Assembly: GCA_004143605.1 (NCBI GenBank)
Contig: AWVY01000018.1
Location: forward strand, 125,047 to 164,351
Origin: Desulforamulus aquiferis
GTDB taxonomy: Bacteria; Bacillota; Desulfotomaculia; Desulfotomaculales; Desulfotomaculaceae
Direction: 5' to 3'
Length of the DNA: 39,305 nucleotides
A program made the translations under genes and the position numbers. A model generated the notes under the pieces. The model was not told the DNA's origin. It worked only from the letters and a program-made list of their open reading frames with translations, and did not search any database. Each line of letters starts with the position of its first letter. Within the stretch, counting starts at the first letter, position 1. Of this stretch, positions 23,460 through 30,924 are shown in pieces.

Positions 23460-23496
23460 ATTAACTTGGGCTGTATCCCCAGTTAATTTAGTTGGA
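23458..23496. terminator. Bidirectional terminator between convergent operons
   Basis: AAATTAACTTGGG pairs with CCCCAGTTAATTT (one mismatch) around a six-base loop. T-rich on the plus side, A-rich on the other. It serves the germination operon and the minus-strand glutamate synthase-like gene. Confidence 0.8.
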
Positions 23497-24884
23497 TTTT
23501 GTTTGCCCGCTAAAAGCAAAAGCAATGCCCGAAAGTTCCGCCATATCCTTATCCAGGGAGAAAATATCTTCCTTAGAAACTTCTCCTACGGAGCTCTTTC
23601 CCAATGCTTTAACCGCCTCTTCCATTTCATAGACAGTGGACCGTAGGAATCTGGCCAGACTTTTAGCACCTTTATTGATATCAAACTTTCCACTGTACTT
23701 ACCCTCTTGCCAGGCTAACTGGGTAGGAGGTTCAAAGGGAACTACTTTTAAAACCTGGGTATGGGTGGTGGCATAGAGAATGGCTGTCCCTAAATAAACT
23801 GCATCTGCACCAAGGGCCATGATTTTAAGACAGTCACCAGGGGTGGAGATTCCCCCGCCAACTAAAAGGCTTACCCTGCCCTTTAAGTTATTGTGCTCCC
23901 AGAAATTTCCTGCCCTGGCTGCGGCAATGGCTGTTGGAACTCCAAAATCATCCTCCAAGGTGGGTAAGGAGCCGTGAGTTCCTGCTTCAGCCCCGTCAAC
24001 ACTTACGAAATCCGCTCCTGCCTGGACAATTATCCTTAAATCATCTTCCAGATATTTACCGGCACCTATTTTTACTCCTATGGGTACGCCATTTGTTACC
24101 TCTCTTAATTTGCCTATGAGGGCCTTTAAATCTTGCTCCGATTCTATACCTTCTAACCTGTTGTGTATTACCGCATCCTGGCCCCTTTGCAGCCCAAGCC
24201 TGCTACGGAGCTTTTCATTCATATTTTCTGCCTTAAGGGTTTTACCGGCGCCTGCATTTGCTCCCTGGCCGAACTGTATCTCGATGGCATCACTTTGCTT
24301 TAAATATTTAATCTTTTATTCCAACTGATACGGGAGTACTGTAGGATTAAATGCTTAGCAGCCTGTCTTTCCTTTTCCAGCCAAGGGCCAAGGCCGGTAT
24401 TGGTAGATGTTCCGACAGCACTGGCTCCCTTGGCAAAGGCTATTTTGTAGGCCTCAGTAAGGGCAAGTCCATAGGACATACCGGCAACTAAAATGGGAAT
24501 TTTAAGCTTTAGGGGTTTTTTCGCCTTGGGCCCAATTACTACATTGGTGTCAATATTGGTTTCCCTCTTAGTTGGTAACTTGTGTAGCTGGGCTATGTTA
24601 AACATAATTTTATCTAAATAATTATAGCTATTGGGTCCACCAATGGGTCTCTCAATGAAACTATCGGTTTTTGACCTCAATTCGGTTTGTACAAGTTTAT
24701 TAATACCATATCTTTGTATTGATGTGGCAAGCATCCAAAGGTTCTTTTCATATTTGTCCGTGGTAATGTTATAGGTAATCCAGTCTGCCGTATAGTCAAT
24801 GACTTTTCTGGTGAGATATATTCCACCCAGAGCGGAAGCTGTGATTAGTGCAAACTTTGATATTAGGTTATCTTGATCATTCAT
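23488..24884 (-). CDS. FMN-binding glutamate synthase-like protein, YerD type (one frameshift)
   Basis: About 466 residues. An N-terminal hydrophobic helix (FALITASALGGIYL) is followed by a FMN-binding barrel like the central domain of glutamate synthase: IPILVAGMSYGLALTEA, DAIEIQFGQGANAGAG, GADFVSVDGAEAGTHGS and the phosphate-binding GGGISTPGDCLKIMALGADA. One A is missing near 24304-24310. The cysteines that bind the 3Fe-4S cluster in true GltB are absent; that stretch reads PFEPPTQLAWQEGKYSGKFD. There is no amidotransferase domain. It therefore belongs to the YerD-like group of unknown reaction. Strong GGGGAGGTGA site before the ATG. Confidence 0.85.
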
Positions 24885-24993: not shown

Positions 24994-26824
24994 TTATAAG
25001 ATTCCGTGCAGGCTACCGCCTTTGGCACACAGCCTGTCTACCTTACTGGTTACTTCAGGGGATTCAATTAGAGGCGGTGCATGGTGGGGTTTTAGACGTG
25101 CATCTATTATTAGGGGTCCCATACAACCCCAGTGCTTATACTCTGTAAAGCTATTCACTCCATATACATCATGGGAGGGATTAGATCGGGTAAAGGTGAC
25201 CCAGAGGAAATTGTTTATATGCCGGGCTGCAAATTCGCTGTCTTCGGTGAGTACAATTAGAGCGATATCCTCTGGATAATCTGTTTTAGCTAAATGGTTT
25301 GCCAACTCTTGGGCATCCTTCTCTCCTGTTTTAGTGTCTATGTATGGAGGTGCACTTATCACCACTACACCGGGTAGTGCTAAAGCCGGCCTAGCAAAGC
25401 CGTCCGGCAGTTTTAAATCGCTGCTAAGACTTTTAGCCAAACTGCGTTTCGGTTCTCCAGCAGCAGCTATTACAAGTTTAGAGCCCCGGTTGAAGCCGGT
25501 GCCTGAGTAATCCAGGGTGTCTATGGTGGTCATGGTTTGGAAGTGTAAGTCTCGGCGCCAATCTACCCTTTCCAGCACATGGCTGAAATATGCTTGAATA
25601 TCGTATACGTCCAAACCAGGATGATCCTCTTTGGCAGCAATAAATAGGTATTTAGCCAGGGAGCAGTGTCCAAAGCCCAGGATAGAATTAGCTAAAGTAA
25701 GTATTTCCCGGGGTTCTCTGGGTGCATAGGGAATGAACTGCTCTCTGCCAATGGCTAACAGAAGAGGGTGCACACCGGACGCGTCTACGGCATGGAGAGC
25801 TTCTACGCCGGGGATTGAAGTAGGAACCACTGGGTCTACAATCTCGTGGATCAGTTTTCCAAATACTGTATCCTCCTGGGGCGGTCTTCCTACCACAGTA
25901 AGGGCCAAATGGCATCCTTGCGATGATATACCTGCTCCACATTGAGGTAAGGGAATTCATGGTGGAGGGAATAGTAGCCCAGATGGTCACCGAAGGGTCC
26001 TTCCGGCTTTGTTTTTCCAGGAGTAACAGTGCCAATAATGCAAAAATCCGCGTCTGTTGAAAGGGCATAGCCATTACGATAGGTGTATCTAAATCGACGC
26101 CCTGCCAGGAGACCGGCAAATACCGCCTCCGGTATAGCTTCCGGCAGGGGCATAATTGCAGCCAGAGTATGACTTGGGGGTCCGCCAACAAAGATACTGA
26201 CTTTAAGGGGCTCCCCTTTTTTAAGGGCATTAGCATGATGAAGTCCAATGTCCCGTCTGATTTGGTAATGCAGGCCAATCTCTTTATCTTTAATATACTG
26301 GTTACCCGATAGTTGAACCCTGTACATTCCAAGGTTAGAATGCATGATGCCAGGTCTGAGGGGATCTTCAGAATAGACCTGGGGGAGAAGGATAAAGGGC
26401 CCACCATCTTGGGGCCAGCATTTTACCTGGGGCAGTTGGCTGATAGTTGTTTGTCCATGAAGTACCGGGCCAGAACCAACTTTTTAGGTAGGGCCGTTAA
26501 ACCAGTCATTGATAGACCTGCATATTCCCAGGGACGCCGGATGATTGCCATGGGGTTGGCCGGCACCTGCATAAGCTTCATAACCTTGTCCAGGGTATTC
26601 CTGAAGATGAAGCGAGCCCGCTCCAGGGTGCCGAATATATTTGAGACAGCGGGGAAGGGACTGCCCTTCACCCTCTCATAGAGAATGGCAGGACCTCCCC
26701 TCTGATAGACACGACGATGAATCTCGGCCATCTCCAGATTCGGATCTACTTCTTCCTTTATTCTTACAAGATGACCGTGCCTTTCAAGATCAATAATACA
26801 CTCTTTCATACTTTTATATATCAT
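24994..26824 (-). CDS. UbiD-family prenylated-FMN decarboxylase (two frameshifts)
   Basis: About 610 residues, the long UbiD type. The ATG at 26824 is chosen because AAGGAGA lies 8 bases before it. The protein starts MIYKSMKECIIDLERHGHLV. Breaks lie near 26450 (one A missing, restoring TISQLPQVKCWPQDGGPFIL) and near 25905 (one G missing, restoring DAIWALTVVGRPPQEDT). Family segments include HSNLGMYRVQLSGN, GGPPSHTLAAIMPLPEA, KPEGPFGDHLGYYS and NVEQVYHRKD. UbiD enzymes carry out reversible decarboxylation of aromatic or unsaturated acids with prenylated FMN made by UbiX. No ubiX is in the window. The substrate cannot be told. Confidence 0.88.
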
Positions 26825-27081
26825 CAACAAATTCTCCTTAAGACAGTGGTCAGTAATATATCCCATCATATCTTATCATAGTACAAATAAAAAATGGAAT
26901 GGACCCCATTGGTTATTCGAAAAAGTTGCTGAACAAGGGCCATAGTATATGGAATTCTGAAGAATAGACCTATCTTATAACAAGAGATTGTTTTTTATAA
27001 GGTTTATGTATAAGTAATCTAGTGGAGTAAAAACTATTTCTATGGTTAGATGCCAAATTGAAATAGTAGGGAGGAAAATCA

Positions 27082-27577
27082 ATGCCCCAGGGTGCCACTC
27101 AAACAAAAACCCTAAAGGTGGGAGATAGGGCCCCCGACTTCACCCTTAAGGCGCACGGTGAACGCACTGTTAAGCTTAGTGATTTCCACGGCAAGAAAAA
27201 TGTATTTATTGCTTTTTATCCCCTTAATTGGACTCCAGTTTGAGGATTGCAATTACCTTCATACGAGCAGGACTTATCTCGTTTTGAAGAGTTAAATACC
27301 CAGGTTCTGTATAAGCGTTGACAGCATACCAAGTCATGAAGCATGGCAAAAGTCCATTGGCGGAATAAGCTATCCCCTTTGTGCTGATTTTTATCCCCAT
27401 GGCGAGGTTACCAAGCAATACGGAATACTTCGTGAGGGAGATCCTTTTCCAGGAATTGCAGAAAGGGCATTATTCATTGTTGATAAAGAGGGAATCATTC
27501 GTTTTATCGATGTACACCCAATCGAGAAAAAGCCCAATAATCAGGAGTTATTTGACATACTCAAGTCTTTACAATAA
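27082..27577 (+). CDS. Peroxiredoxin (AhpE-like) with in-frame UGA at the peroxidatic site: probable selenoprotein
   Basis: The ATG at 27082 has GGGAGG upstream. The frame reads [14 protein letters not shown], then [12 protein letters not shown] followed by TGA (27241-27243), and continues in the same frame as [20 protein letters not shown]. In peroxiredoxins the residue after (F/W)TPV is the peroxidatic cysteine, so TGA stands exactly there and most likely encodes selenocysteine. A hairpin 13 nt downstream resembles a bacterial SECIS. A separate two-base gap near 27310 (GGG read as G) must be repaired to give [15 protein letters not shown] and the end at TAA 27575-27577. About 165 residues. 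A further Cys lies in [12 protein letters not shown]. It should reduce peroxides; UbiD stands divergent upstream. Confidence 0.85.
27257..27289 (+). promoter_or_regulatory. SECIS-like hairpin downstream of UGA
   Basis: ACGAG/CTCGT (27263-27267 with 27278-27282) is extended by CTTCA/TGAAG (27257-27261 with 27285-27289) across a small internal loop. The ten-base apical loop, CAGGACTTAT, begins 24 bases after the TGA and carries G's near its 5' side. Spacing and loop fit bacterial selenocysteine insertion elements read by SelB. The fold was made by eye. Confidence 0.6.
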
Positions 27578-28751: not shown

Positions 28752-30924
28752 TTGGAAAACTATATAAAGACCGGCAAAATTCAAGTATCCCAGGTCCTTT
28801 TTGACTTTGTTAATTTAGAAGTTCTTCCTGGCAGTGGCCTGGACAGGGAAAGTTTTGGTCTGATTTAGAATTATTGATTAGCGACCTGACCCTGCAAAAT
28901 AAAAATTTATTAGCCCGTAGGGACGAGCTGCAGGGCCAAATAGACACCTGGCACAAGAAAAACCAGGGAAACTTTGATTTTACAGAGTACAAAGAGTTTT
29001 TAAAGGGCATCGGTTATCTAGAACCTGAAGTGGGAGATTTTACAATTACCACCCAAAGGGTAGACAGTGAAGTTGCAGCACAAGCTGGTCCCCAATTGGT
29101 GGTTCCTGCGACAAATGCCCGTTATGCCATCAACGCTGCCAATGCCAGGTGGGGTAGTCTTTATGATGCCCTTTATGGAACCGATGCCATTAGTTATGAG
29201 GGGGCTGAGTGCGGGAAGGGATATGATCCTGTTCGAGGGGAAAGGGTAATAGCCTTTGCAAGGGATTTTTTAAATCAGACAGTACCCTTAATGGAGCAGT
29301 CCCATAAAGAGGTGATTCAGTATATCATCTCAGGGGCAAAACTAAAGGCTAAACTTGGAAACGGTGAAATCACTGAGCTTAAGGATAATTCAAAATTTGT
29401 GGGCTATCTGGGCAGCCGGAAGCGCCTACGGCTATATTATTCCAAAATAATGGGCTCCACTTTGAAGTTCAAATTGACAGAAACCACTCGATCGGTAGAG
29501 ATGATAAGGCTGGGGTAAAGGACATACTAATGGAAGCTGCCCTAACCACCATTGTTGATTGTGAAGATTCGGTAACAGCCGTAGATGCAGATGATAAGGT
29601 GCTGGTTTATCGTAATTGGTTGGGGCTAATCAAGGGAGACCTAAAAGCTACCTTCAAAAAGGGTGACCAAGGGATCGTCAGGAACTCAGCCCAGATCGCA
29701 GTTATAACTCTCCTGCTGGAGGGGAAATCAAGCTAGCCGGACGTTCCCTCCTATTGGTTAGGAATGTTGGACATCTAATGACCATAAACGCTGTGCTGGA
29801 TCAGGATGGCAAGGAAGTGCCGGAAGGAATTTTAGACGGTGTTTTTACAAGCCTAATTGCCAAACATGATCTTTTAGGTAACAGCAAGTATAAAAATTCT
29901 CGGCAAGGCTCCATATACATAGTTAAGCCCAAAATGCACGGCTCAGAGGAAGTGGCCTTTGCTGATAAACTTTTTGCGCGGATTGAAGACATGCTGGAAC
30001 TGGCCAGGAATACTATAAAAATCGGTGTTATGGATGAAGAACGCCGGACAACCTTGAATTTGAAGTCCTGCATTAGTAAAGTTAAGGAAAGGGTTGTTTT
30101 CATCAACACTGGATTTTTGGATCGCACCGGGGATGAAATACATACTTCTATGGAAGCAGGACCCATGATTCGTAAGAACGAAATGAAAAACTCCAAGTGG
30201 CTGCAAGCTTATGAACAGTGGAATGTGGATGTGGGCTTAGCATGTGGTATGCAAGGGAAGGCCCAGATAGGGAAAGGAATGTGGGCCATGCCGGATCGCA
30301 TGGATGATATGGTTAAGCAAAAGGCCGGCCAGCTATTAGCCGGGGCCAACACGGCCTGGGTACCTTCACCAACCGCAGCACCTTACATTCATTGCATTAC
30401 CATCAAATTAATGTACCCGAGGTTCAGAAAAAACTGTCAGGGAAATTCCAGGCTTCCTTGGATGATATCTTACAGATACCTGTGACTAATGACCCTAAAT
30501 GGAGCAGTGAGGAAATCCAGCAGGAATTGGATAACAATGCCCAGAGTATATTAGGCTATGTAGTTCGCTGGGTGGAGCAGGGTATCGGCTGCTCAAAGGT
30601 GCCAGATATAAATAATGTAGGCTCATGGAGGACAGGGCTACGTTGCGAATTTCCAGCCAGCATATGGCCAATTGGCTGTATCATGGTATTTGTACCGAGG
30701 AACAGGTATTAGAGACATTGAAAAGAATGGCCAAGGTGGTGGATGAGCAAAATGCAGGTGATCCTTTCTACCGCCCCATGTCTAAAGACTATAATAATTC
30801 TGTGGCCTTCCAAGCTGCATGTGACCTTGTATTCAAAGGCCGGGAGCAGCCAAATGGCTATACTGAGCCAATTTTGCACCGCAGGCGTGCAGAGGCGAAG
30901 GCCAAATTTGTCACACAATGCTAG
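28752..30924 (+). CDS. glcB: Malate synthase G (several frameshifts)
   Basis: About 725 residues, the usual length of malate synthase G, which condenses glyoxylate and acetyl-CoA to malate. The TTG at 28752 with GAGGGG ten bases upstream is my start; ATG 28731 is possible. Family segments are strong: [113 protein letters not shown] and [14 protein letters not shown]. Breaks near 28855, 29447, 29684, 30385 and 30620 each lack one base. No isocitrate lyase is in the window, so glyoxylate may come from glycolate or glycine-type metabolism. Confidence 0.93.

Follow-up and report, generated by a model that had tools for sequence, protein, structure and literature searches.

PrxU is a peroxiredoxin (Prx) that carries selenocysteine (Sec) at its peroxidatic site, and the NCBIfam model NF040737 (PrxU) presumably stands for the Eubacterium acidaminophilum enzyme. 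AhpE of Mycobacterium tuberculosis (structures 1xvw, 4x0x and 5id2) is reportedly reduced by mycothiol and mycoredoxin 1 (Hugo et al. 2014, cited in PMC10950700). Sec-containing Prx proteins with a TxxU motif and a PF00578/COG1225 domain are treated as an established family in the relevant sections of several papers (PMC13188914, PMC9312934, PMC1088965, PMC1794560, PMC5029168), one of which counts 91 proteins from 78 organisms (PMC5029168). Annotation programs are described as taking UGA as a stop only, hence the wide misannotation of selenoproteins (PMC1088965).

Here we describe a gene in a 39,305-nucleotide stretch of Desulforamulus aquiferis DNA (the window) that very probably is functional and specifies an AhpE-like peroxiredoxin with Sec as the peroxidatic residue. 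It has the PF00578 domain, the PxxxTxxU motif and the in-frame TGA of the TxxU family, and the genome has Sec genes; nothing excludes membership, and the gene joins this known selenoprotein family as a further member, one that falls in an AhpE-like clade. AhpE itself is the nearest relative of known structure by profile and by the fold predicted for a close relative, the difference being that the predicted Sec replaces the peroxidatic Cys. A Sec peroxiredoxin gene is thus recovered from a noisy assembly with the support of comparison. The strongest argument for it is the TGA shared with related genes, and the weakest is the hairpin that follows the TGA.

A peroxiredoxin frame containing TGA

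The frame starts with ATG at 27082 and contains a TGA, a stop codon under table 11, as residue 54 of a 74-residue reading, within PLNWTPV-U (the TGA translated as a residue). This is the peroxidatic position, as the original prediction had stated, and its further claim of a peroxiredoxin-like frame beyond the TGA is borne out by about 20 matching residues before the match leaves the frame near 27303–27310. Pfam AhpC-TSA (PF00578, cut-off 26 bits) matches in two pieces in two frames, the first with one TGA inside (Table 1). The gene end predicted at 27577 is correct (TAA at 27575–27577), but it is reached only by joining the second frame from 27308.

Table 1. Coordinates of features in the window and at related loci (L numbers).
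Feature	Location	Strand	Basis or remark
Shine-Dalgarno-like GGGAGG	27069..27074	+	7 bases 5' of ATG; sequence
Peroxiredoxin N-terminal part, codons 1-74, TGA read as Sec	27082..27303	+	PF00578, 52.8 bits
TGA at peroxidatic residue (PxxxTxxU)	27241..27243	+	same column TGA in 15/15 nearest loci
Putative bacterial SECIS hairpin, apical loop 27268-27277	27255..27292	+	minimum-energy fold; z -0.45, not significant alone
Reading-frame change, most likely assembly indel	27303..27310	+	frame reading; Pfam pieces; selA comparison
Peroxiredoxin C-terminal part, second frame, TAA included	27308..27577	+	PF00578, 44 bits
Glutaredoxin-reductase fusions	L060:1677-2924; L061:1616-2875; L063:1340-2599; L064:1611-2870		upstream of Sec peroxiredoxin
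Chloroflexota Sec peroxiredoxins with C-terminal glutaredoxin domain	L073:3001-3753; L076:3001-3759

Conservation of the TGA and the selenocysteine machinery

The first 75 residues served as query in a search for related loci across named genome contigs, and the best 80 of 397 loci were kept. The scan pattern specified Cys at the TGA site, so the scan was not tilted toward TGA. Among these best 80 of 397 loci, the codon at the TGA column is TGA in 35, TGC in 35 and TGT in 10. The 15 nearest of the 80 (L057–L071), which are 63–81% identical to the query, have TGA without exception. They come from separate projects, belong to Bacillota and Acidobacteriota and include cultured isolates, among them Schinkia azotoformans LMG 9581 and Ammoniphilus resinae DSM 24738. 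Judged from these sequences, the TGA is beyond chance. The anaerobic Firmicutes in which the original prediction had set Sec peroxiredoxins are too narrow a frame for this gene type, whose nearest relatives are Bacilli and Acidobacteriota. Residue conservation runs on across the TGA in all 15. A plain stop, with or without a downstream restart, is what table 11 would make of the codon, giving short products; however, the thioredoxin fold would be cut at its active site in either product, and with conservation passing through the codon in all 15 nearest loci this reading is scarcely credible.

An error of sequencing or assembly, the true codon being TGT or TGC in an ordinary Cys peroxiredoxin, might be entertained for an assembly with as many frame breaks as this one (selA in four pieces, UbiD in three and malate synthase in several). 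Against it stand the Sec machinery of the genome and the TGA of all 15 nearest loci from separate projects, and because of the latter an error at the TGA appears very unlikely; we regard the Cys reading as highly improbable. The original prediction had named TGT or TGC at 27241–27243 as the finding that would overturn it, and this judgement of that finding draws on the relatives.

The window belongs to an assembly (G000) of 3.57 Mb that is 72% complete. A tRNA-Sec lies at C56:20646-20738 (63.4 bits, cut-off 47; called tRNA-SeC, anticodon TCA). The same contig holds SelA (best piece 283.7 bits, cut-off 267.9) and SelB (best piece 284.5 bits, cut-off 242.25), and SelD is found on contig C24 (361.9 bits, cut-off 125). 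All four insertion genes, selA, selB, selC and selD, whose absence was to count against the original prediction, are therefore present above cut-off in the same assembly. Since the nearest relatives have the same TGA and the genome holds the Sec machinery, the TGA is almost certainly a Sec codon on comparative grounds, and the protein would contain Sec. The tRNA-Sec was also sought in 30 genomes from the 80 loci (21 TGA, 9 Cys). It is above cut-off in 20 of the 21 TGA genomes (L066 being the exception) and in seven of the nine Cys genomes (all except L072 and L117), and because most Cys genomes have it too, it fails to discriminate between the two sets.

Further TGA codons were seen in passing. 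In the selD gene (G000:C24:2798-3720, L025), the matched frame contains a TGA, and SelD may be a selenoprotein too. One selA piece (G000:C56:46414-46899, L021) has a TGA inside, possibly through a frame break. TGA also stands at the peroxidatic column in L105, L115, L127, L037, L038, L047 and L054, other peroxiredoxin-like subtypes by eye, whose hosts are Myxococcota, Acidobacteriota and members of the window's own phylum. A gene of Microcystis phage MaAM05 (MW495066.1:40544-40990) is annotated as a selenocysteine-containing peroxiredoxin, with 37.6% identity to L057.

RNA structure downstream of the TGA

Bacterial SECIS elements as a rule have a G within the first two bases of the apical loop. 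The loop of the minimum-energy stem in the window, CAGGACUUAU, starts 24 bases past the TGA and has GG at loop positions 3–4. The original prediction was right about this location and about a G in the loop, but not about the value of the hairpin as evidence. Its stability corresponds to a z of −0.45, 58 of 200 shuffles folding equally well, and to a z of −0.02 against synonymous codon shuffles. The hairpin is no better than chance and by itself no evidence for Sec; as proof of Sec it is ruled out. A G at loop position 1 or 2 is seen in just one fold of the window, and that fold belongs to another hairpin 37 bases away. The original prediction had also proposed comparison with a SECIS model, and an Rfam search of the window and of the site gave no match.

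Taken together, the TGA homologues form more stable folds than the Cys homologues against synonymous shuffles, with a mean z of −1.46 (n=36) versus −0.41 (n=45); the Mann–Whitney p of 1.7e-5 for this comparison is optimistic since the sequences are related. The mean z is −1.94 for the nearest 18. Among 20 near TGA sequences, 14 have a fold at or near the minimum whose loop starts 23–27 bases after the TGA with a G in its first two bases; L067, L068 and L079 have no fold with such a G, and in L070 and L071 it occurs in another hairpin. RNAalifold on 20 sequences gave no consensus pairs. In the pair counts for the named structure, 67.5% of cells are paired versus 65.5% in shuffled sequences (71 of 500 shuffles reach the observed value), and 35–52% with the structure slid, with no clear covariation. 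Seven column pairs were examined, of which two stood out in the TGA set, at 16/20 (fraction 0.031) and 11/20 (fraction 0.028). They were dropped as SECIS support, the first pair standing out in the Cys set too (0.006). In the favoured reading the window copy would have a working SECIS, with the hairpin as the candidate.

Integrity of the reading frame

Frame breaks are common in the G000 assembly. Within the window, the glutamate-synthase-like gene (23488–24884), UbiD (24994–26869) and malate synthase G (28874–30924) are all split, each across at least two frames, a pattern that indels in the assembly would produce. The selA gene, in pieces here, is a single frame in each of eight same-genus genomes (8/8), and for this reason the break at 27303–27310 is probably an assembly indel. 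If the break were real, the gene would be a pseudogene or a decaying copy of a Sec peroxiredoxin. Such a copy would account for the frame change itself and for the ordinary hairpin, and the lack of a near copy in the eight same-genus genomes searched (8/8) is as for a recently acquired gene. The likewise broken selA speaks against decay, however, as do the family's conserved residues, kept in both halves, and the good ribosome site. We consider a pseudogene unlikely, and a working gene interrupted by an assembly error is the reading followed below.

Relationship to AhpE and PrxU

The closest described families were compared by profile and by fold. AhpE structures are the top matches (1.6e-40) to a profile built from 22 sequences. 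A structure model of the relative L059 (pLDDT 91.7) has AhpE as its first 11 PDB matches (TM 0.89–0.90, 38–39% identity), followed by the 2-Cys peroxiredoxin 5zte (TM 0.86, 42% identity), whose closeness to AhpE in this predicted-fold search counts against an AhpE-like 1-Cys label. Ten of the 15 nearest proteins lack Cys entirely, as in the 1-Cys type; the window protein (in its second half), L058, L059 and L065 have one further Cys. The AhpE-like label of the original prediction is thus supported by the relatives' alignment and the modelled fold of L059, the material on which it was tested in place of the broken window protein.

The two window pieces and the six relatives tested all stay below the cut-off of every NCBIfam model. 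With PrxU NF040737 (233 positions, cut-off 270 bits), scores were 38.2 and 20.9 bits for the window pieces and 68–92 for the six relatives; with Prx-SUH NF045827 (cut-off 298 bits), the second half of the window gene scores 28.4 bits and the six relatives 37–54. Elsewhere in the phylum, genes in other genomes (L038, L047 and L054) resemble PrxU on visual inspection (FYPGDFTFVU).

Distribution of the gene

In a tree of 84 proteins (L071 left out as a duplicate and four of the loci L028–L056 included), the window protein clusters with nine Bacillota TGA rows (support 100/96), its placement within the group being weak (90/57). The next starred set comprises 40 rows from several phyla, 20 with TGA and 20 with Cys. 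The TGA/Cys label changes seven times on the tree, at least four times by starred branches. The reading of the relatives' proteins that gave the Cys counts covered plus-strand hits, and its repeat on both strands over loci L028–L056 returned 28 of 29 (no match for L055, no codon for L056).

The search of eight same-genus genomes gave three weak matches only, at 33–35% identity. On inspection, two of them (L046 and L053) proved to be CxxC proteins that look ResA-like and are not peroxiredoxins; the third lies at G003:C1:2676579-2676740. Such a scattered distribution suggests that the peroxiredoxin gene was gained horizontally or lost repeatedly. At 71% identity to its counterpart in two genomes of the same genus, the neighbouring thiM argues for the contig being native. 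Around thiM in those two genomes, DNA similarity to the window is found at thiM alone, plus short pieces elsewhere, and since it is essentially restricted to thiM the arrival of the peroxiredoxin gene could not be dated. A DNA search of plasmids with the window gene gave no match, and plasmid protein matches to L057 number 421 records, all below 60% identity. In a 16S comparison, the 15 matches listed show 84–85% identity across the full length, and three further records lie in bands above 90%.

Neighbouring genes and proposed function

Genes for glutaredoxin (Grx) and for PrdB-like proteins were sought within flanks of up to 3 kb. Directly upstream of the peroxiredoxin gene, four of the 15 nearest loci (L060, L061, L063 and L064) have a Grx fused to a thioredoxin-reductase-like flavoprotein, with PF00462 and PF07992 domains in L060 and L061 and assigned in L063 and L064 by 94–95% similarity; in two more (L059 and L065), the upstream gene encodes a glutaredoxin-like protein by itself. 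In two Chloroflexota loci the Grx domain forms the C-terminus of the peroxiredoxin itself (L073, PF00462 39.1 bits; L076, by similarity). Weak reductase matches also lie near two Cys loci (L072 and L075).

Ten of the nearest 15 loci have a PrdB/GrdB-like gene that begins no more than about 270 bases downstream (L057:3527-4228, L070:3554-4267, and those of L059, L062, L065–L069 and L071). In nine of these genes a TGA of their own was read at a UPxC or UPxxC site; the gene of L067 is cut by the contig end. The three PrdB-like proteins tested are above the PF07355 cut-off and score 156–194 bits, under the 300-bit PrdB cut-off, and so cannot be taken as established proline reductases. Beside L077 the PrdB-like gene occurs in a Cys form; at the 45 Cys peroxiredoxin loci, no match was obtained within the flanks examined, the weak reductase matches at L072 and L075 apart.

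The window gene has other neighbours, the UbiD pieces divergently upstream and thiM downstream, with no Grx-reductase or PrdB-like gene adjoining. In the 72% complete G000, no match to a PrdB-like gene was obtained in a search run without a positive control, and reductases without a fused Grx were the only ones found, the best being 36% identical (C18:119909-120808); the Grx part alone gave one 27% match.

The likely function is peroxide reduction by the selenol. SelB and Sec-tRNA would read the TGA at 27241, guided by the hairpin just 3' of it. The selenolate would then attack H2O2 or an organic peroxide and be oxidised to a selenenic acid, to be returned to the selenol by an external thiol donor. 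The donor is most likely a protein of the glutaredoxin or thioredoxin type, fed by a flavin reductase. We infer this type of donor because Grx is adjacent or fused in relatives, whose gene neighbourhood points to an electron path from flavin reductase through glutaredoxin to the selenol and indicates an unexpected partner, the PrdB-like selenoprotein. More tentatively, and at somewhat worse than even chances in our estimation, the AhpE-like Sec peroxiredoxin may lie at the centre of a so far unrecognised peroxide system that is based on selenium and found in Bacilli, Acidobacteriota and Chloroflexota, working with Grx (separate, reductase-fused or Prx-fused) and with a second, PrdB-like selenoprotein whose job is not proline reduction; lacking such neighbours, the window organism would then have just the peroxidase, probably acquired through horizontal transfer.

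Some Prx gene pairs have been named before, namely SELENOW-like with Prx and AhpD-like with Prx-like (PMC13188914, operon section), and ten Prx/SelW pairs are given in PMC2398784. A Prx–PrdB pairing is not named in that operon section or in the corresponding part of PMC2398784, and a literature search found no title on it. In the Sargasso Sea set, PrdB genes number 42 and Prx genes 43, according to the section of PMC1088965 that gives the counts; should the Prx–PrdB pairing extend beyond the loci studied here, it might be relevant to the similarity of these two numbers.
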